A stretch of DNA of 64,000 nucleotides from Bryobacterales bacterium. Its GTDB lineage: Bacteria > Acidobacteriota > Terriglobia > Bryobacterales > Bryobacteraceae. The notes beneath the pieces were generated by a model, which saw only the letters and a list, made by a program, of their open reading frames with translations, had not been told where the DNA came from and ran no database searches. A program made the position numbers and the translations under genes. Shown here piece by piece: positions 5,204-62,098 of the stretch; the first letter of the stretch is position 1, and every line of letters begins with the position of its first letter. The DNA is taken from positions 1-64,000 of the forward strand of contig JAOAPR010000139.1 of NCBI GenBank assembly GCA_025463005.1, in the 5' to 3' direction.

Positions 5204-5860
5204 TCAGGAGCGACGCCCAGCACGGAGCGTCGGCTCTGGCCTCTCTAAAGGCACGAAGGCCTGCTGGTCGTTATCGTACGCTGTGACCAAACCCTCGCCG
5301 AGGTCATACACCCAGCCGTGCAGTTGCAGATCGCCCTGCGCCAGCCGGGCCGCGACCAAGGGATGTGTCCGCAGGTTGCCCAGTTGCTCGATCACGTTGC
5401 GCTCCGTCAGCGCCAGCAGGAATTCGGGGCCGCTGTGCGTCGGTTCCTGCGACGCGGCTGCCTTGCGCGCGGGCTGCGCGTAACTCAACCAGGCGCTCAC
5501 GCTGGTCAGCGGTTCCAGGGGTTCCGGATTCATCACGCCTTTCAGGACGCCACAGTCGGTGTGCCCGCACACGATCACGTCAGGGACGCCCAGAACCCCC
5601 ACCGCATATTCAATGGTCGCCGAAACGCCGCCGATGGCATCCGGATAGGGCGGAACGATGTTGCCGACGATCCGGCAGATGAACAGCTCGCCGGGCTTGG
5701 TTTGGGTCAGCATGCAGGGGTCGATGCGCGAATCGGCGCAGGTGATGAAGAGGGCTTGCGGCCGCTGCCCCAGCGCGAGTTTTTGGAACAGGTCGCGGTG
5801 CTTGGGGTAGACGCGCTTCTGGAATCGAAACAAGCCTTTGAGAATACGGTCCACGGACAT
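5204..5860 (-). CDS. Beta-class carbonic anhydrase
   Basis: Interconverts CO2 and bicarbonate. All beta-class zinc-site residues are visible: Cys41 and the Asp43-Arg45 dyad in TCADSRIDP, then His100 and Cys103 in CGHTDCGVLKG. Length 218 aa is typical for a soluble bacterial enzyme; there is no signal peptide. The C-terminal tail RPEPTLRAGRRS is Arg-rich and unremarkable. The start ATG at 5860 gives MSVDRILKGLFRFQKRVYP, the usual N-terminus. It lies directly upstream of the DASS-type transporter gene on the same strand and is divergent from the exported-protein pair at 5937. Confidence 0.95.
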   Translation of the reverse strand: MSVDRILKGLFRFQKRVYPKHRDLFQKLALGQRPQALFITCADSRIDPCMLTQTKPGELFICRIVGNIVPPYPDAIGGVSATIEYAVGVLGVPDVIVCGHTDCGVLKGVMNPEPLEPLTSVSAWLSYAQPARKAAASQEPTHSGPEFLLALTERNVIEQLGNLRTHPLVAARLAQGDLQLHGWVYDLGEGLVTAYDNDQQAFVPLERPEPTLRAGRRS

Positions 5861-5936
5861 CTATTCTACACTCGGGACCTCCGGTTGACTTCGCAAACCC
5901 TTGACTGTACGATCGAAAACGACGTGGAGGGGCCCT

Positions 5937-6935
5937 ATGAGCCATCGCTTTTTCCTGCTCCTGAGCGCGCTTGCGATCGTAACGGCGGTTTCCGCGCAGA
6001 CCGCTCAGCCGGCAGTCGCAGCCAAAGCCGCTGCGGCGAAAAAGTGGACCGCTCCGCGCACCCCTTGGGGCGATCCCGATCTTCAAGGCTGGTTCACCAA
6101 CCTGCAGGAAGACGGCACACCGCTAGAACGCCCGGATCAATTTGCAGGGCGTCAGCTCGAGGACATTAAGGGCGAAGAGCTCGCCGCCATCAAGCGCGAC
6201 GTGCAGAAGCGGACGATCACTACCTTCCAGGGACCTCTCCATGCTCCCGAGAACTGGTGGCAGAACGATCTCAATCTGGTGAAGGGCAGCCAGGCGTGGC
6301 TGATCGTCGATCCTCCAGATGGCAAGATCCCCGCATTAACGCAGGAAGCCAAGGACCGGGCTGCCGCGCGCGCCGCGGCCAGGCGCGCCAGTGGACGCGG
6401 CCCAGCCGACTCCTGGGAAGATCTGACCCTCTACGACCGCTGCATTACACGCGGCCTGCCCGGATCCATGATGCCGGTGATTTACGGCAACTCATATCAG
6501 ATCCTGCAATCGCCCGGGTTCGTTTCCATCCGCTATGAAATGGTCCATGAAACCCGCCTGATTCCTCTGGACGGTCGCCCGCACGCCGGCTCGAGCATTC
6601 GCTCCTATATGGGCGATCCGCGAGGCCACTGGGAAGGCGACACGCTGGTGGTCGAGACTACCAATTTCCGCGACGACGGGACCTATCGCAATGCCAATGG
6701 CGCGACGCTTCGCTTGACCGAGCGCTTCACCCGTATCGCACCCGATAAAGTGAAGTGGTCGGTCACCGTCGAAGATCCCGCCACCTGGACCAAGCCTTGG
6801 ACGTTCTCGATGCCTCTGACCATGGACGACTCGCAGCCGGTGCTCGAATACTCCTGTCACGAGGGCAATTATGGGTTGAGGAACATCCTCAGCGCGGCGC
6901 GCGCGGAAGAGAAGAAGGCGGCTAATGCGAAATAG
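5937..6935 (+). CDS. Exported DUF6152-partner family protein (copy 1)
   Basis: A 332-aa exported protein: the signal peptide FFLLLSALAIVTAVSAQ precedes an Ala/Lys linker and the block APRTPWGDPDLQGWFTN. The C-terminal half carries the motif GHWEGDTLVVETTNF, then LTERFTRI and EDPATWTKPWTF, which recur in the proteins at 8863, 42847, 44272 and 51611. The start ATG has GGAGG at 5926-5930. It overlaps the next gene, a DUF6152-type protein, by 11 bp, so the two are translationally coupled. The family is common in soil Acidobacteriota and Alphaproteobacteria genomes as 'hypothetical protein'; I know of no assigned activity. This copy is the most divergent, with a longer N-terminal half, and here it precedes its DUF6152 partner rather than following it. 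Confidence 0.8.
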   Translation: MSHRFFLLLSALAIVTAVSAQTAQPAVAAKAAAAKKWTAPRTPWGDPDLQGWFTNLQEDGTPLERPDQFAGRQLEDIKGEELAAIKRDVQKRTITTFQGPLHAPENWWQNDLNLVKGSQAWLIVDPPDGKIPALTQEAKDRAAARAAARRASGRGPADSWEDLTLYDRCITRGLPGSMMPVIYGNSYQILQSPGFVSIRYEMVHETRLIPLDGRPHAGSSIRSYMGDPRGHWEGDTLVVETTNFRDDGTYRNANGATLRLTERFTRIAPDKVKWSVTVEDPATWTKPWTFSMPLTMDDSQPVLEYSCHEGNYGLRNILSAARAEEKKAANAK

Positions 6936-7326
6936 AATATTGCTTTTTCTGTTGGCGATTGCGGTCCCCGTATGGGCGCACCATGCGTTCTCTGCGGAGT
7001 TCGATGGCAACAAACCCATCAAGCTGGTGGGCCGCGTCACAAAAATGGAGTGGATCAATCCGCATGCCTGGATCCACATGGATGTGAAAGGCGCCGACGG
7101 GAAGGTGATCAGCTGGATGGTCGAGCTCGGTCCGCCGAATGCGCTGCTCAAGCGCGGCTGGAACAAGAGCTCGCTGCCCGAAGGGACGGAAATTATCGTC
7201 GACGGCTACCAGTCCAAGGTCGGCGAGCTGCGGGTCAATGGCCGGGATCTCACGTTCCCCGACGGCAAGAAGCTGTTCGCCGGATCGTCCGGCACGGGCG
7301 CGCCCGACGAAAGGCCCGAAAAATAA
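6925..7326 (+). CDS. DUF6152-type periplasmic protein (copy 1)
   Basis: Small exported protein (133 aa). A short signal peptide (ILLFLLAIAVPVWA) is followed directly by HHAFSAEFDGNKPIKL, then the conserved WINPHAWIHMDV strand, a WMVELGPP segment and PDGKKLFAGS at the end. If signal peptidase cuts after VWA, the mature protein starts with His-His. Its start lies 11 bp inside the upstream partner gene. The same architecture is present at 8462, 43831 and, fused to a partner domain, at 44272. The function is unknown; a small beta-barrel or OB-like fold is plausible from the alternating strands, but this is inference. Confidence 0.85.
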   Translation: MRNRILLFLLAIAVPVWAHHAFSAEFDGNKPIKLVGRVTKMEWINPHAWIHMDVKGADGKVISWMVELGPPNALLKRGWNKSSLPEGTEIIVDGYQSKVGELRVNGRDLTFPDGKKLFAGSSGTGAPDERPEK

Positions 7327-7363
7327 AGTGGAGCCCGCAGGGGGGCCTTAGCCGGTCGGCAAT

Positions 7364-7376
7364 CTGATACTATCAG
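7364..7376. repeat. Small palindrome upstream of infC
   Basis: CTGATA-C-TATCAG is a perfect 6-bp inverted repeat with a 1-nt centre, between the DUF6152 gene and infC. It may be an operator half-site pair or may be chance; there is no other support. Confidence 0.2.
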
Positions 7377-7411
7377 GTCATGACAGTGTCGCCTGCCATC
7401 TTCAGGCCCAT

Positions 7412-8032
7412 GTGCCGATGATTCCTAGAGGATTTCCCCCGCGCCGTCCCAGAATCCGGGAAAACGTGAATGAGGCGATTCGCGCACGTGAAGTGCGCGC
7501 CGTTTTTCCCGACGGCACAGTAGAAGTTCTGCCCACTCAGCAGGCGATTCGCAAAGCGCAGGACCTGGGCCTCGATCTGATCCTGATCGCTCCCACGGCC
7601 GAGCCGCCCGTCGCCAAAGCCATGGACTACGGTCAATGGCAGTACGAGAACAAAAAGAAACAGCACGAGGCCAAGAGGAAGCAACACATCATTCAGGTGA
7701 AGGAGCTGAAGTTCCGCCCCAACACCGATGATCACGACTACGACTTCAAGAAGAACCACGCGATTCGGTTCCTGCAAGAAGGCAATCGCGTGAAAGCCGT
7801 GGTCCAATTTCGCGGTCGAGAGATCGCGCACACGGATCTGGGCAGAAAGCTCCTGCTGCGGTTCGCTGCGGACCTCTCTCAGTACGGGACGATCGAATCC
7901 CAGCCGCGACTCGAAGGCCGCAATGCGCACGTGCTGCTGAGCCCTGTGAAGGCCGCCGTCCAGCATCCCCCTAAAGAGAAAGAAAAACCCAAGCCGGACG
8001 CGAGCAATGGCACGCCTCCCGCATCCGCTTAG
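7412..8032 (+). CDS. infC: Translation initiation factor IF-3
   Basis: Binds the 30S subunit, prevents 50S joining and checks start-codon pairing. The N-terminal domain (IRENVNEAIRAREVR to AKAMDYGQWQYE) and C-terminal domain (KELKFRPNTDDHDYDFK, IVQFRGRE-type strand, EGRNAHVLL) are complete. An extra Pro/Lys-rich tail (PKEKEKPKPDASNGTPP) extends past the usual end, giving up to 206 aa. The start is ambiguous: GTG at 7412, ATG at 7418 or ATT at 7421. IF-3 genes often use rare ATT-type starts for autoregulation, and no strong Shine-Dalgarno sequence precedes any of the three. The usual neighbours rpmI and rplT are absent; the next gene is a convergent lipoprotein gene 6 bp away. Confidence 0.93.
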   Translation: MPMIPRGFPPRRPRIRENVNEAIRAREVRAVFPDGTVEVLPTQQAIRKAQDLGLDLILIAPTAEPPVAKAMDYGQWQYENKKKQHEAKRKQHIIQVKELKFRPNTDDHDYDFKKNHAIRFLQEGNRVKAVVQFRGREIAHTDLGRKLLLRFAADLSQYGTIESQPRLEGRNAHVLLSPVKAAVQHPPKEKEKPKPDASNGTPPASA

Positions 8033-57585: not shown

Positions 57586-57681
57586 GTGAGGCTCCTTAGG
57601 CTGGAATTGAATTGATAATACCACCGGAGAAGGCAATTCGATCCCCTGCCTGTTATGCTGCATAGGAAGCGAAGCCCAGAT

Positions 57682-59868
57682 ATGAAAAGAAAACATTATT
57701 TGTTGGCAGTTCCGCTGATGACTGCCTGCGCTCTGTTCATCGTCTTGGGCCAACAACCGGCCGCAGGACCGTACACAACAGCGCAAGCCGCCGCGGGCCG
57801 CGCCACCTATCAAGAGCGCTGTGCGAGCTGCCACCTGGAGGACTTAGGCGGACGCTTTGAAGCGCCTCAACTTGCGGGATCCGATTTCATGAGCCAGTGG
57901 GGCGACCGGACCGCGGGCGAGCTGATCTCTTTCATGAAGCTGACCATGCCGCCGGCAAATCCGGCAAGCTTAGACGAGCAGTCGTACGTCAGCATCGCCG
58001 CGTTCCTTCTCGACGCGAATGGGGCGCGACCGGGCGCGCAGCCTCTCACCGCGGCTACCAACGTCGCGATTCGCTCCGTGGCGAACGGCCAGGTCCCGGC
58101 GGCAATCCGGCCCGCTCCGGGACAGGTAGCCGTCGCTGCAAAGGCGCAGCCGGGGGCTCCGAAACAGGCTGGCAAGCAAGCCGGTAAGCAACAGCAACCG
58201 CCGGCCGGGCCACGCGGGATCACCGTGGCCGGTGAGGTGAAGAATTTCGTTCCAGTCACGGAGGCGATGCTACGAAATCCCGATCCCGCTGACTGGCTCA
58301 TGATCCGGCGCGATTACAAAGCTTCCAGCTACTCTTCTCTGAACCAGGTCACCCGGGATAACGTCCAGGACCTGCGCCTGGTGTGGCAATGGGCCATGAA
58401 CGAAGGCGGAACGAATCAGCCGGCTCCGCTGGTTCACAACGGAACCATTTACCTGAACAATACCGGGAACATTCTGCAGGCATTGGACGGCCGCACCGGC
58501 GAGCTGATCTGGGAGCAGCGTTACGGCGGCGCGGCGACGGCCCATTCGATGCGCGGCATCTCGATTTACGGCGATCGTGTGTTTGTTGCCGCGAGCGACG
58601 GACGCATGCTCGCTTTCGATGCGCGCACCGGCGCGAAGATTTGGGAATCGAATGTTGCCGACGCCGCCCAAGGCCAGCGATACAGCGCCAGCAGCGGTCC
58701 TCTGGTCATCAATGGAAAGTTGATACAAGGCCTGGGTCCGAGTTGCATGCGCTACACCGAGGAAAAATGCTTCATTAGCGCTTATGACACAGCCGATGGC
58801 AAGCTGCTCTGGAAGTTCTATACGATCGCGCGCCAGGGCGAGCCGGGAGGCGACACCTGGGGCAACCTGCCGGATCTGTTTCGCGCGGGCGGCGAAGCCT
58901 GGATCACCGGGAGCTACGATCCGGATTTGAATCTCACCTATTGGGGTGTTTCGCAGGCCAAGCCGTGGATGCGCGCCAGCCGTGGATCGGGCAACGGAGC
59001 GAATCTTTACGCCAATAGCACTGTCGCTCTTAATCCCGACACCGGCAAGCTGGCCTGGTATTACGCCCACGTGCCCGGCGAATCCTTCGATATGGACGAG
59101 ACCTTCGAACGGGTTCTGGTGGACGACAGCGGCCAGAGCCTGGTGTTTTCGGTGGGCAAGCACGGGATCCTGTGGAAGCTCGACCGCAAGACCGGAAAGT
59201 ATCTAGGCCACAAGGAAACGGTTTTTCAGAATTACTTCGATTCCTTCGATCCGGTCACAGGCGAACCGCATTATCGCAACGACATCGTGGAGCAGCGCGT
59301 AGGCGAGTGGCTGCCCGGCTGTCCTTCAACCGAGGGCGGGAAAAACTGGCAGGCCATGAGCTACCACCAGCCGACGAATCGTCTGATCCTTCCACTCAGC
59401 CAGAGCTGCATGGAGTACAACCCTCAGAAGATCGAGCAGGTGGCGGGAGGCGGCGGGGGCGGCGCGGGACGGCGCTTTTTCGAGATGCCGGGAGTGAATG
59501 GCAATATCGGCAAGCTGGCCGCCTATGACGTCCGGACTATGCGCGAGGTGTGGAAACTCGAACAGCGCGCGCCGCTGCTAACATCCGTACTGTCGACAGC
59601 CGGCGGCATCGCCTTTGTAGGCGATCTCGACCGCGTCTTCAAAGCCGTGGATGTGAACAATGGGAAAGTGCTGTGGGAAACGCGACTGGCGACCTCGGTC
59701 CAGGGATTCCCCGTTTCCTTCAGCGCCGGCGGGAAGCAGTACATCGCGGTGACCACGGGCCTCGGCGGCGGAAGCCCGCGACAGGTTCCTGAGATCCTGG
59801 CACCCGAAATTCACTACCCGAGCAGCGGCCATGCGCTGTACGTGTTCGCGTTGCCGGAAAAACGATAG
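57682..59868 (+). CDS. Quinohemoprotein: N-terminal cytochrome c and PQQ beta-propeller
   Basis: 728-aa exported oxidoreductase. After the signal peptide, heme c site CASCHLEDL near residue 42 starts a cytochrome domain of about 100 residues; then an Ala/Lys/Gln linker (about 130-190), and a PQQ-dehydrogenase-type eight-blade propeller ([66 protein letters not shown]). Related to alcohol or glucose dehydrogenases but with the cytochrome N-terminal, unusual for classic type II ADH. Substrate unknown. Its stop is 1 bp before the left target repeat of the mobile element. ATG 57682 chosen over 57655. Confidence 0.85.
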
Positions 59869-59877
59869 CGGAGTTAG
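59869..59877 (+). repeat. Left target-site direct repeat of IS1-like element
   Basis: CGGAGTTAG, directly after the TAG stop of the PQQ gene (59866-59868). The exact copy is at 62090-62098. The last G may belong to the element instead, leaving 8 bp. Confidence 0.85.
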
Positions 59878-59893
59878 GTAGTGGGTCAGTTTG
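59877..59893 (+). repeat. Left terminal inverted repeat
   Basis: GGTAGTGGGTCAGTTTG; matches the inverted copy at 62073-62089 with one mismatch and the inverted copy at 60838-60852 perfectly over 15 bp. Confidence 0.85.
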
Positions 59894-59949
59894 GAAAAGA
59901 GTAGGTGACTTGCGAAAACCATGAATCTCAGTAAACGGAGAACTCATGA

Positions 59950-60804
59950 TCAGTTTTCCGATGGTTTTTCCACGTGATCAATCACGAGCGTTTCGACGGG
60001 CCCGCGGGCAGGTTCGAGACGGAGGCCGAGCTGCTCCTCTAAGGCAGTGAACAATGACGGGTCCCCGGAATCCGGTTGTGCCGCGAGTCCGGAGGTGAAG
60101 CGCAGCTGGAAGCTATAGCGGCCCGCAAGCTTGGTTTCGTCGGTTACGGTACGCCCGACCTCGTTGATGATCAGTGTCACCAGTGTAGAGACGGGAATGG
60201 CGGTCGCGTCAATCGATCCGCGACCGGGCCGGAATCGACCCGTGACGCTAGCGTCTTCAGCTTTCATTTTGGAACCGACTTTGGAGACCACCAGCCGGTA
60301 AATGGGCTGAAGCCGGGTTTCGCGGTGAAGCTGTAGTGCGAAGCGATCGGCCAACATCGATTGGAGCATCCGTTGGCTGCGCGATAATCCGGTGGTGCCG
60401 GCGGGGATTGGACCCGCGTCAATATCGAACGTCGCGGATTTCATCCAATCCGGTCCGCCGACGATCTGGTGATCGCGCACTTGGTAGGCGAACTTAAGCA
60501 GAGCCGTGAGGCTGACGCTGGTGGCGCGAAGTTGCGTGCCGGAGTAGTCGATGAGCCCTTTGCTCGGATCGAAGCTGCGGCTCGCGTGGATCGCGGCGAC
60601 GTCGAAGACGAGTGAGTCGCCCTGTGCAAACGCGGAAGGAATGCCTGCAGTGACGAATGCAGCAACAACCACCACCAGATATCGTGCGTTGAAACCCCTG
60701 CACCAAGGCGGCTCGGTGCGTTCAGCTTCGCCGATGGATTCGACGAATATGGGGTGCGCTGGTTCATTGGGATCGCGCCGGCTTGTTTTTGAGCGGTCAG
60801 GCAT
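59950..60804 (-). CDS. TIGR03435-type protein (soil-associated family)
   Basis: 284-aa protein with an N-terminal tail of about 40 residues, a hydrophobic segment (YLVVVVAAFVTAGIPSAFAQ), and the family core LVFDVAAIHASRSFDPS, GTQLRATSVSLTALLKFAYQV, QIVGGPDWMKSATFDIDA, RMLQSMLADRFALQLHRET, PIYRLVVSKVGSKMK, FTALEEQLGLRLEPARGPVETLVIDHVEKPSEN. This is the TIGR03435 family, abundant in Solibacter-like Acidobacteriota, with unknown function. Flanked on both sides by inverted GTAGTGGGTCAGTTT ends, inside the IS1-like element. Confidence 0.85.
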   Translation of the reverse strand: MPDRSKTSRRDPNEPAHPIFVESIGEAERTEPPWCRGFNARYLVVVVAAFVTAGIPSAFAQGDSLVFDVAAIHASRSFDPSKGLIDYSGTQLRATSVSLTALLKFAYQVRDHQIVGGPDWMKSATFDIDAGPIPAGTTGLSRSQRMLQSMLADRFALQLHRETRLQPIYRLVVSKVGSKMKAEDASVTGRFRPGRGSIDATAIPVSTLVTLIINEVGRTVTDETKLAGRYSFQLRFTSGLAAQPDSGDPSLFTALEEQLGLRLEPARGPVETLVIDHVEKPSEN

Positions 60805-60837
60805 GGCTGGTTTCTAGACCAAGTAATTTTAAACTTT

Positions 60838-60852
60838 AAACTGACCCACTAC
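60838..60852 (-). repeat. Internal inverted copy of element end
   Basis: AAACTGACCCACTAC, perfect 15-bp inverse of 59878-59892. With the left end it brackets the TIGR03435 gene (about 975 bp). Confidence 0.8.
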
Positions 60853-60860
60853 TCTCTAGA

Positions 60861-60877
60861 GGTAGTGGGCTACTTTG
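60861..60877 (+). repeat. Internal element-end-like sequence
   Basis: GGTAGTGGGCTACTTTG matches the left end at 13 of 17 positions and lies 8 bp after the end at 60838-60852 (TCTCTAGA between them). It could start a second nested element. Confidence 0.55.
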
Positions 60878-60917
60878 AATTTTGGCTTCAGATATACTCT
60901 CAATCGGAGGCGCTAAA

Positions 60918-61340
60918 TTGAGTCCTAGTCGCCGAACCCTTACCATTCTAGCCGCACTAGTGCTTGCGGCTTTGTGCGCCCTTCCGCAGGCCAGCCGCGA
61001 ACACGACTTCTGGCGGGACATTAAGCGGGCCCTTACGGCACCAGACGGGGATGAGTTTTTCACCAAGATGAAAGATGCTCTGGTTCCAGGGGTGGTCCCC
61101 TACTGGCAGGGCTCTTACATATCAGGCACGTTTGGTGAACACAGCACCGTTGTGCTTGGCATGACAGACTCCGAAACTCCGGAGGTCACCTTGGTAGTTC
61201 GATCCAAAGTGAAAACACCGCCTAAGCGAGGAGCCTTGATTCAATTTGAGGGCGTTGCTTGTCGCTACACAAGAGAGCCATTCATGCTCACCATAGATGC
61301 CACGCGGGTGAGCGGCCTAGATACCGAGGGCGCACGCTAA
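60918..61340 (+). CDS. Exported protein of unknown function in the mobile element
   Basis: 140-aa protein from TTG 60918, with GGAGG 7 nt upstream (60906-60910). Signal peptide RRTLTILAALVLAALCALP followed by DFWRDIKRALTAPDGDEFFTKMKDALVP, then strands STVVLGMTDSETPEVTLVV, KTPPKRGALIQFEGVACRYT and EPFMLTIDATRV, suggesting a small beta-rich (possibly OB-like) domain. No known family recognised. It lies next to the transposase relic and the TIGR03435 gene as element cargo. Confidence 0.65.
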   Translation: MSPSRRTLTILAALVLAALCALPQASREHDFWRDIKRALTAPDGDEFFTKMKDALVPGVVPYWQGSYISGTFGEHSTVVLGMTDSETPEVTLVVRSKVKTPPKRGALIQFEGVACRYTREPFMLTIDATRVSGLDTEGAR

Positions 61341-61346
61341 TTGGCC

Positions 61347-61673
61347 TTACGCCGCTCTTTCTAACTCCCGCTCATCGGCTTCCAGCAACGCAACGAGGTC
61401 CGACACTTCCCACAGCCGATCCGTGACGCCAGCAGCCATGGCGGGTGTCGTGCGAAGTGAGCGGTGGATCTTGATAAAGTTGTACCGTTCTTCTGCTTGG
61501 CCCCAATGAAAGCTCACATCTCATCGACCTGGACACGCTGGCAGGTCAGGTTGCGGAACATCTGGTCCTGAAACTTGAGAGCAACCGCACCGGCCTCCAC
61601 CAGCAGGCTTCAGAACCGTGGGCTTGGAAACACCAGTCATACGGACCGTGGACCGGATAGAACAACCCTCCAC
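61347..61673 (-). pseudogene. Decayed IS1-family transposase
   Basis: Reverse-strand reading gives EGCSIRSTVRMTGVSKPTVLK, then a frameshift, LLVEAGAVALKFQDQMFRNL, TCQRVQVDEM, a stop where IS1-type proteins have Trp (TGA for TGG), AFIGAKQK, and after a deletion of roughly 100 residues EERYNFIKIHRSLRTTPAMA and AGVTDRLWEVSDLVALLEAD, ending TAA at 61347-61349. All segments match IS1-type transposases in order. Much of the DDE core is missing, so the element cannot move itself. A copy of the element end appears at about 61674-61688, immediately before the remaining 5' part. Confidence 0.85.
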
Positions 61674-61861
61674 TTGACCACTACCCCCCGGTAGGTTGTG
61701 GACGGCAGGGAACGCCTGGGCGCGGATACGGGCAGGCTCCGCTTCTCAGGCCTTGAAACCGGGGAAGGCTGGCCAAAAGAGGGGGGGCAAAATAAAGGTT
61801 GAATTTCGCGAAAGATTAGCTACGCTTCGTCAGGGCCAGAATCGGCCCGAAAGAGGATGAC
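61674..61861. other. Intervening DNA in the mobile element
   Basis: Starts with ttgaccactaccccc, an end-like motif in reverse orientation, followed by a G/C-rich stretch (ggtaggttgtggacgg...). Nothing coding is recognised. It probably represents a deletion junction. Confidence 0.4.
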
Positions 61862-62080
61862 ATGGAAGACACAGGAAACGAACAATTTACAACCACAACG
61901 GTACTGGTTTGCCCAATTTGCCGAGGACCCCTGACAAGCTTGCCAAGTTTGCCCGAGGCGATCCGAAAATACGAATGCGGGGAACTGAAGGGCTTCTGCG
62001 GGCGGCATGATTGGCAATATGCGGTATGGTCCATAGAACCAGATAAAATCCAAAGTCAAGACCCTGATATTTCAAACTGA
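61862..62080 (+). CDS. Small Cys-rich protein in the mobile element
   Basis: 72-aa ORF with AGAGG 6 nt before its ATG. The sequence contains CPIC near residue 17, then C and C/H residues in RKYECGELKGFCGRHDWQY, so a four-ligand zinc-binding motif is possible. Tail WSIEPDKIQSQDPDISN overlaps the right inverted end at 62073. Function unknown; it may be a passenger or an artefact of the inserted DNA. Confidence 0.45.
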   Translation: MEDTGNEQFTTTTVLVCPICRGPLTSLPSLPEAIRKYECGELKGFCGRHDWQYAVWSIEPDKIQSQDPDISN

Positions 62081-62089
62081 CACACTACC
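62073..62089 (-). repeat. Right terminal inverted repeat
   Basis: CAAACTGACACACTACC, the inverse of 59877-59893 with one mismatch. Immediately followed by CGGAGTTAG. Confidence 0.85.
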
Positions 62090-62098
62090 CGGAGTTAG
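62090..62098 (+). repeat. Right target-site direct repeat of IS1-like element
   Basis: CGGAGTTAG, identical to 59869-59877. It includes the TBDR stop codon (TTA on plus strand, 62095-62097), so insertion did not disrupt that gene. Confidence 0.85.

Follow-up and report, generated by a model that had tools for sequence, protein, structure and literature searches.

Within the 64 000-nucleotide window analysed here (the whole stretch, from contig JAOAPR010000139.1 of the Bryobacterales bacterium assembly GCA_025463005.1), positions 59877-62089 are very probably (about 0.85) occupied by a 2.2-kb mosaic transposon, non-autonomous and belonging to a group of transporter insertion sequences related to IS1. 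The element lies between a PQQ gene and a TBDR gene of this soil acidobacterium and carries a TIGR03435 gene. A preliminary description of this DNA had proposed a passenger-carrying, non-autonomous, IS1-related insertion, and this was upheld; its further suggestion, that such ends help explain how numerous TIGR03435 genes are, was not borne out. Genomes, contigs and loci are labelled G, C and L, respectively, G000 being the genome of the window.

Boundaries and internal structure of the element

The ends of 59877-62089 and the repeat that flanks it mark this segment as an insertion, with inverted ends and an exact target duplication at its borders:

59869-59876, no strand: target duplication, left copy CGGAGTTA, 8 bp, identical to 62090-62097
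59877-59894, plus strand: outer left terminal inverted repeat GGTAGTGGGTCAGTTTGG
62072-62089, minus strand: outer right terminal inverted repeat GGTAGTGTGTCAGTTTGA
62090-62097, no strand: target duplication, right copy, containing the TBDR stop codon (TTA on the plus strand)

The outer terminal inverted repeats match at 16 of 18 nucleotides. As first described, GGTAGTGGGTCAGTTTG at 59877-59893 (plus strand) and its inverted copy GGTAGTGTGTCAGTTTG at 62073-62089 (minus strand) were both found in the sequence, and CGGAGTTAG was present on both sides, at 59869-59877 and 62090-62098. Because the left end itself starts with the ninth base of CGGAGTTAG (G), the duplication was counted as 8 bp, which is also its length in relatives when lengths of 7-10 bp are compared. 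The boundaries had been placed at gene stops, and this was confirmed: the PQQ stop codon occupies 59866-59868, the left duplication copy starts immediately after it, and the TBDR stop codon (62095-62097) lies inside the right repeat. Since these stops flank the element, its removal would leave two convergent genes with 5 bp between their stops.

The frequency of such structures around TIGR03435 genes was estimated by de novo scanning for inverted ends with a direct repeat. A home-made profile run over 190 loci (60 of which were part of the TIGR03435 places among the matches listed) gave 252 distinct TIGR03435 hits, of which 211 were flanked on each side by 1 kb or more and 41 had less than 1 kb on one side. 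The scan retained the window gene, L016 and L138. When right flanks were swapped between loci, 4, 3, 2, 2 and 1 of the 252 genes gave some match, and with shuffled flanks 1 of 100 genes did; ends and repeat by themselves could represent about one chance occurrence per 100 genes. The window case is raised above this level because its end sequence, accompanied by 8-bp repeats, was met again in other genomes. Given that many genomes share it, and that it is present on plasmids belonging to another phylum, a fortuitous arrangement is exceedingly improbable. L138 was discarded as chance-like, its repeat being weak and the swapped-flank control yielding 1-4 such genes.

The ends found inside it show that the element combines two cassettes, A and B, as a mosaic with four ends in all. 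The two inner ends, overlooked in the preliminary description, are 7 bp apart. Cassette A (59877-60853) contains the TIGR03435 gene; cassette B (60861-62089) contains a 152-aa open reading frame (ORF), a transposase remnant and a 72-aa ORF:

59950-60804, minus strand: 284-aa ORF, TIGR03435/DUF3738 passenger with a transposon-derived N-terminus (PF12543, E 1.3e-52; TIGR03435, E 3.3e-58)
60707-60805, minus strand: start of the 284-aa ORF, about 33 codons, homologous to the GGxKGG accessory gene (DNA match to L211)
60837-60853, minus strand: inner end, right end of cassette A, AGTAGTGGGTCAGTTTA, with the accessory start 49 bp inside
60861-60877, plus strand: inner end, left end of cassette B, GGTAGTGGGCTACTTTG
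60882-61340, plus strand: 152-aa ORF with a TTG start, presumed passenger of cassette B (ORF list)
61350-61673 (about), minus strand: IS1-like transposase remnant (tblastn with three transposases)
61862-62080, plus strand: 72-aa ORF, stop codon within the right terminal repeat (ORF list)

Ends of the same type as the left end of cassette B are found at C163 and C39 and also flank L208, where the 8-bp repeat is exact. The decayed IS1-type transposase reported earlier was recovered in two frames: an HTH is followed by a segment in another frame that contains a stop, and then by the C-terminus, about 160 core residues being gone. No family above cut-off was found for the 152-aa ORF in Pfam or NCBIfam, and the 72-aa ORF had no NCBIfam match. 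Read outward, the conserved end encodes a stop (TCA AAC TGA), for instance at 62072-62080 in the window and in several other elements; ORFs leaving an element terminate in the conserved end, including those of five of the nine aligned transposases.

The TIGR03435 frame of the window starts with MPDRSKTSRRDPNEPAHPIFVESIGEAERTEPP and the accessory gene of the congeneric locus L211 with MPDRSKTRPRDPNQLAHRVFLESIGEAEKTEPP. At the DNA level, the fusion part and the L211 gene share 79.8% identity along 99 nt (E 2e-20), up to the point where the TIGR03435 part starts; the accessory genes of L076 and L081 gave weaker matches. The distance from the end inward to the accessory start is 49 bp in the window, 58 bp in L078 and 67 bp in L211. 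Given this homology and the position of the start near 60853, the inner end at 60853 was taken as a true end. We take the TIGR03435 gene to have replaced, in frame, what would have been the remainder of an accessory gene, and the fusion would give the captured gene its expression.

The IS1-related group

The end pattern (at most one mismatch) was found in 63 of 200 genomes of the family, and a reversed control pattern in three. Inward pairs of ends 0.7-4 kb apart among the matches listed, including those of C163 and the window, were picked without regard to duplications. Among these 17 pairs, 11 had an exact 8-bp repeat, four (L079, L081, L082 and L085) had one with a single mismatch and two had none. 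Duplication lengths of 7-10 bp were compared for the 17 pairs and for three plasmid elements; further elements were screened for 8 bp only. Altogether, 23 elements of at least 824 bp with 8-bp duplications were collected (19 exact, four with one mismatch), among them the added elements L200, with ends mismatched at 4 of 18 positions, and L208. A near-full transposase match (at least 267 aa) was present in 16 of them, two being the elements of the query proteins themselves, and absent from seven. Elements with duplications were also found in other acidobacterial families (L247, L250 and L254) and, with exact 8-bp repeats, on alphaproteobacterial plasmids (L273, L274 and L276). Plasmids of Mesorhizobium, Acidiphilium and Hoeflea carry a related transposase and other genes between such ends; for the Methylocapsa plasmid element L275, two ends were found and no duplication was detected.

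Two clusters of ends were observed in passing. Genome G063 has 39 end matches, some in miniature elements, of which L089 (152 bp) and L090 (87 bp) each have exact 8-bp repeats. L038:4284-7869 (C163 of G000) is a stack of six group ends; the duplication of the intact element at 5690-7869 of this locus abuts the end of a neighbouring decayed element, which suggests clustered insertion.

The group transposase is a single ORF of about 274-300 aa with a predicted N-terminal HTH, and nine aligned members were 56-69% identical to the first. PF03400 (IS1) and PF13610 matched all nine at E 0.01, the best PF03400 E-value being 6.4e-11; the L083 transposase scored 31.3 bits against PF03400 (cut-off 24.1). 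The two transposases compared with the NCBIfam IS1 equivalog NF033558 scored 55.4 and 58 bits, below its cut-off of 100. A PF03400 search of the window's own genome gave a single match, at C163, of 21.7 bits and below cut-off; related transposases with an open frame are present at C163 and, less closely related, at C125 and C75. The best match of a predicted model (mean pLDDT 79.4) was the ISCth4 transposase (E 2.3e-5), and retroviral integrases were also matched; there were five structure matches at E 0.001, with modest TM-scores by query length of about 0.2-0.4 (best 0.39). The IS1595 family was rejected as a home for the transposase, no ISXO2/IS1595 domain being found in L082 at E 0.1 or in the nine members at 0.01. 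With the window genome counted in both totals, genomes matching the transposase profile numbered 14 of 23 in the genus (at E 1e-10 or lower) and 21 of 149 across the phylum (at E 1e-20 or lower). One transposase searched against plasmids matched 19 records, nine over at least 80% of its length; the best match, 57.8% identical, is annotated as an IS1 family transposase of Mesorhizobium.

The cargo of the elements is varied. Matches above cut-off were obtained for a HigB-like toxin with an HTH/M78 partner (L082), a PemK-like toxin (L086), DUF3800 (L075) and a proteasome domain (L078); L075, L076 and L084 gave weaker proteasome-like matches, and many of the scanned passengers had no family match or one below cut-off. 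Proteasome-like Ntn-hydrolase genes are recurrent cargo in four genomes (L075, L076, L078 and L084), at pairwise identities of only about 26-27%. An HTH or XRE protein is carried by the annotated Mesorhizobium and Hoeflea elements; the RES/Xre pair beside the Acidiphilium element was not counted as cargo, because it lies at or just past the right end (4900 in L274). Among those compared, the L082 transposase is nearest that of L083 (68.6%), which carries other cargo, and the cargo proteins of L082 (161 aa) and of the Methylocapsa element share 57.4% identity, the transposases of these two elements only 52.5%. In this one case, cargo and transposase similarity appear to disagree. At least 14 of the 23 elements (L074, L076, L078, L080-L084, L086, L091, L247, L273, L274 and L276) encode a small protein, identified partly by eye, that bears the motif GGxKGG...IAxKAAxARW or one of its variants; in the Mesorhizobium element it is annotated as 'histone H1'.

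IS1 itself is under 1 kb, with two ORFs joined by a frameshift and a zinc-finger N-terminus, and its target duplications are usually of 9 bp; in the family they span 8-11 bp, mostly 9. The group resembles the IS1 family in the IS1 Pfam DDE domain of its transposase, in ends that begin with GG and in a short target duplication, which was 8 bp wherever found and so differs from the usual length while falling within the known range. It differs from the family in having a single ORF (about 274-300 aa) whose N-terminus is an HTH and in its length of 2-4 kb with passengers; compared with IS1 proper, it lacks the frameshifted two-ORF plan. Mobile insertion cassettes carry passengers between the ends of insertion sequences. 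They are described, in a passage of PMC3129680, as IS-related units without an active transposase of their own. This fits the window element, L079 and L081, the window copy having lost the transposase core and kept a TIGR03435 gene; the window element departs from such cassettes in its two joined units and the leftover fragment of a dead transposase. The same paper, citing Siguier et al. (2009) on the IS1595 family, defines a transporter insertion sequence as a transposase accompanied by genes unrelated to transposition. An intact transposase with passengers between one pair of ends, as in 16 of the 23 elements, corresponds to this definition, whereas the window copy's own transposase is dead; in contrast to transporters of the IS1595 family, the group has transposases that match the IS1 domain and often a small accessory protein. 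Tn3-derived miniature elements (TIMEs) are non-autonomous and generate mosaics, according to a part of PMC4133298; the window element is likewise a non-autonomous mosaic, with ends of IS1 type and not of Tn3 type, and the L016 element resembles this kind. The concepts of transporter insertion sequence and mobile insertion cassette are already known, as PMC3129680 makes clear. The IS1-related passenger-carrying group is apparently undescribed so far, no description being found in the literature searched, which lay outside ISfinder and the main reviews.

History of the site and order of assembly

The TBDR orthologues of three congeneric genomes (G119, G186 and G205) are 82-83% identical at the protein level. 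Within about 50-140 bp after each of them, as read partly by eye, comes the SoxC-like gene that the window has on the far side of its PQQ gene. Between these genes, both the element and the PQQ gene are missing. The absence of the element from the locus in three relatives speaks against its being ancestral there. The PQQ gene (57655-59868 in the window) is either a newcomer too or was lost in the three genomes. Among the matches listed from the 22 other genomes of the genus, only the 3' part of the transposase and the accessory start match the element.

Under the transposon reading, cassettes A and B would have become adjacent elsewhere, and the pair would then have moved as a single unit, via its outer ends, to its present place between the PQQ and TBDR genes; an intact relative would have provided the transposase in trans. 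In intact relatives, the DDE transposase would act on the GGTAGTG... ends and move the whole 2-4 kb unit together with any genes enclosed.

Several observations weigh against this reading. The host genome is an assembly of 342 contigs. No exact empty PQQ-TBDR site was found among the matches listed from 23 genomes of the genus, and none of the 19 loci examined has both genes; the three relatives without the element at the TBDR locus lack the PQQ gene as well. Compared with either outer end of the window, those of C163 are mismatched at 3 of 18 positions, the end pairs of L077 and L088 (2 of 17) are without duplication and the terminal base of the inner end at 60853 is altered. As to the order of assembly that we infer, neither inner pair has an 8-bp duplication of its own.

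This last point bears on an alternative that concerns the order only, in which the outer-ended element came first, other elements were later inserted or recombined inside it, and A and B never moved together. The outer ends and the inner end of cassette A are of one type and the left end of cassette B of another, the remnant in cassette B matches a decayed C163 copy (39 of 45 residues) that lies beside an end of the other type, and stacked ends also occur at C163. A simple insertion should nevertheless leave an 8-bp duplication around an inner pair, and none was found, so the outer pair was taken as the last mover. We consider later insertion rather unlikely; it is compatible with the rest of the transposon reading.

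TIGR03435 copy number and significance of the group

The preliminary description suggested a search for such ends around TIGR03435 genes. The window gene was the only one of the 252 hits with consensus ends within 2.5 kb. The window's own genome has 21 TIGR03435 genes, one with a pair of these ends, and a pair was found at none of 79 TIGR03435 loci of named relatives (79 of 105 relatives scanned), four of which had a single weak end match (up to 4 mismatches; control, five). Counts per genome (TIGR03435 genes; end matches, forward and reverse; transposase matches) were as follows:

G000: 21 TIGR03435 genes; 5 ends; 5 transposase matches
G119: 28 TIGR03435 genes; 1 end; 4 transposase matches
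G186: 33 TIGR03435 genes; 1 end; 5 transposase matches
G162: 71 TIGR03435 genes; 5 ends; 6 transposase matches
G139: 39 TIGR03435 genes; 0 ends; 0 transposase matches
G089: 0 TIGR03435 genes; 6 ends; 10 transposase matches
G170: 0 TIGR03435 genes; 4 ends; 4 transposase matches
G205: 48 TIGR03435 genes; 2 transposase matches
G204: 0 TIGR03435 genes; 10 transposase matches
G034 (another genus): 6 TIGR03435 genes; 4 ends
G152 (another genus): 5 TIGR03435 genes; 14 ends

By inspection of these counts, no positive relation is visible between the number of TIGR03435 genes and that of ends or transposases. TIGR03435 copies range from 0 to 71 across the nine genomes examined in one genus.

A second TIGR03435 gene of the window's genome lies alone in a 1208-bp element, L016:1367-2574 (G000:C131:1995-3202), which has 43-nt ends (one mismatch) and a 5-bp repeat, GGATT, and whose flanks form a hairpin-like inverted repeat. 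Its ends were not found in the 22 other genomes of the genus, and no Tn3 transposase was found in the window's genome. It was labelled Tn3-like from its 43-nt ends, which resemble the Tn3 end, its 5-bp repeat and short plasmid end matches (one near integrase genes).

A general spread of TIGR03435 genes as passengers on such transposons is very improbable. The window gene does sit between such ends, a second gene of the same genome lies in an element of another type (L016), and mobile elements near divergent paralogues are reported for Solibacter Ellin6076 in a passage of PMC3174227 that does not name TIGR03435. Yet the window gene stands alone among the 252 hits and the relatives' loci have no paired ends, and G139 has 39 genes with neither ends nor transposases, the reverse being the case in G089 and G170; G204 has 10 transposase matches and no TIGR03435 gene. 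General spread is contradicted for recent time; an older spread may have left ends that are now fully eroded. No TIGR03435 relatives were found on plasmids, and the literature searched gave nothing mentioning DUF3738 or TIGR03435. The large TIGR03435 family is not accounted for by recent carriage on this group, which is a useful negative result.

IS1 is usually seen as among the smallest, cargo-free insertion sequences. We tentatively put forward, as a possibility somewhat short of even odds, that the group is an IS1-related gene shuttle acting across phyla, modular in its ends, GGxKGG gene, exchangeable cargo and transposase, in which cargo would be captured by in-frame fusion to the accessory gene beside the end and would gain the start signals of the element. 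If so, the TIGR03435 fusion of the window would be a capture event caught in the sequence. By carrying toxin-antitoxin genes and proteasome-like hydrolases together with many unknown proteins in Acidobacteriota, and with relatives on alphaproteobacterial plasmids, an IS1-related group would provide soil bacteria with a route of gene exchange that is so far unannotated; thanks to the conserved ends, its members are easily recognised.

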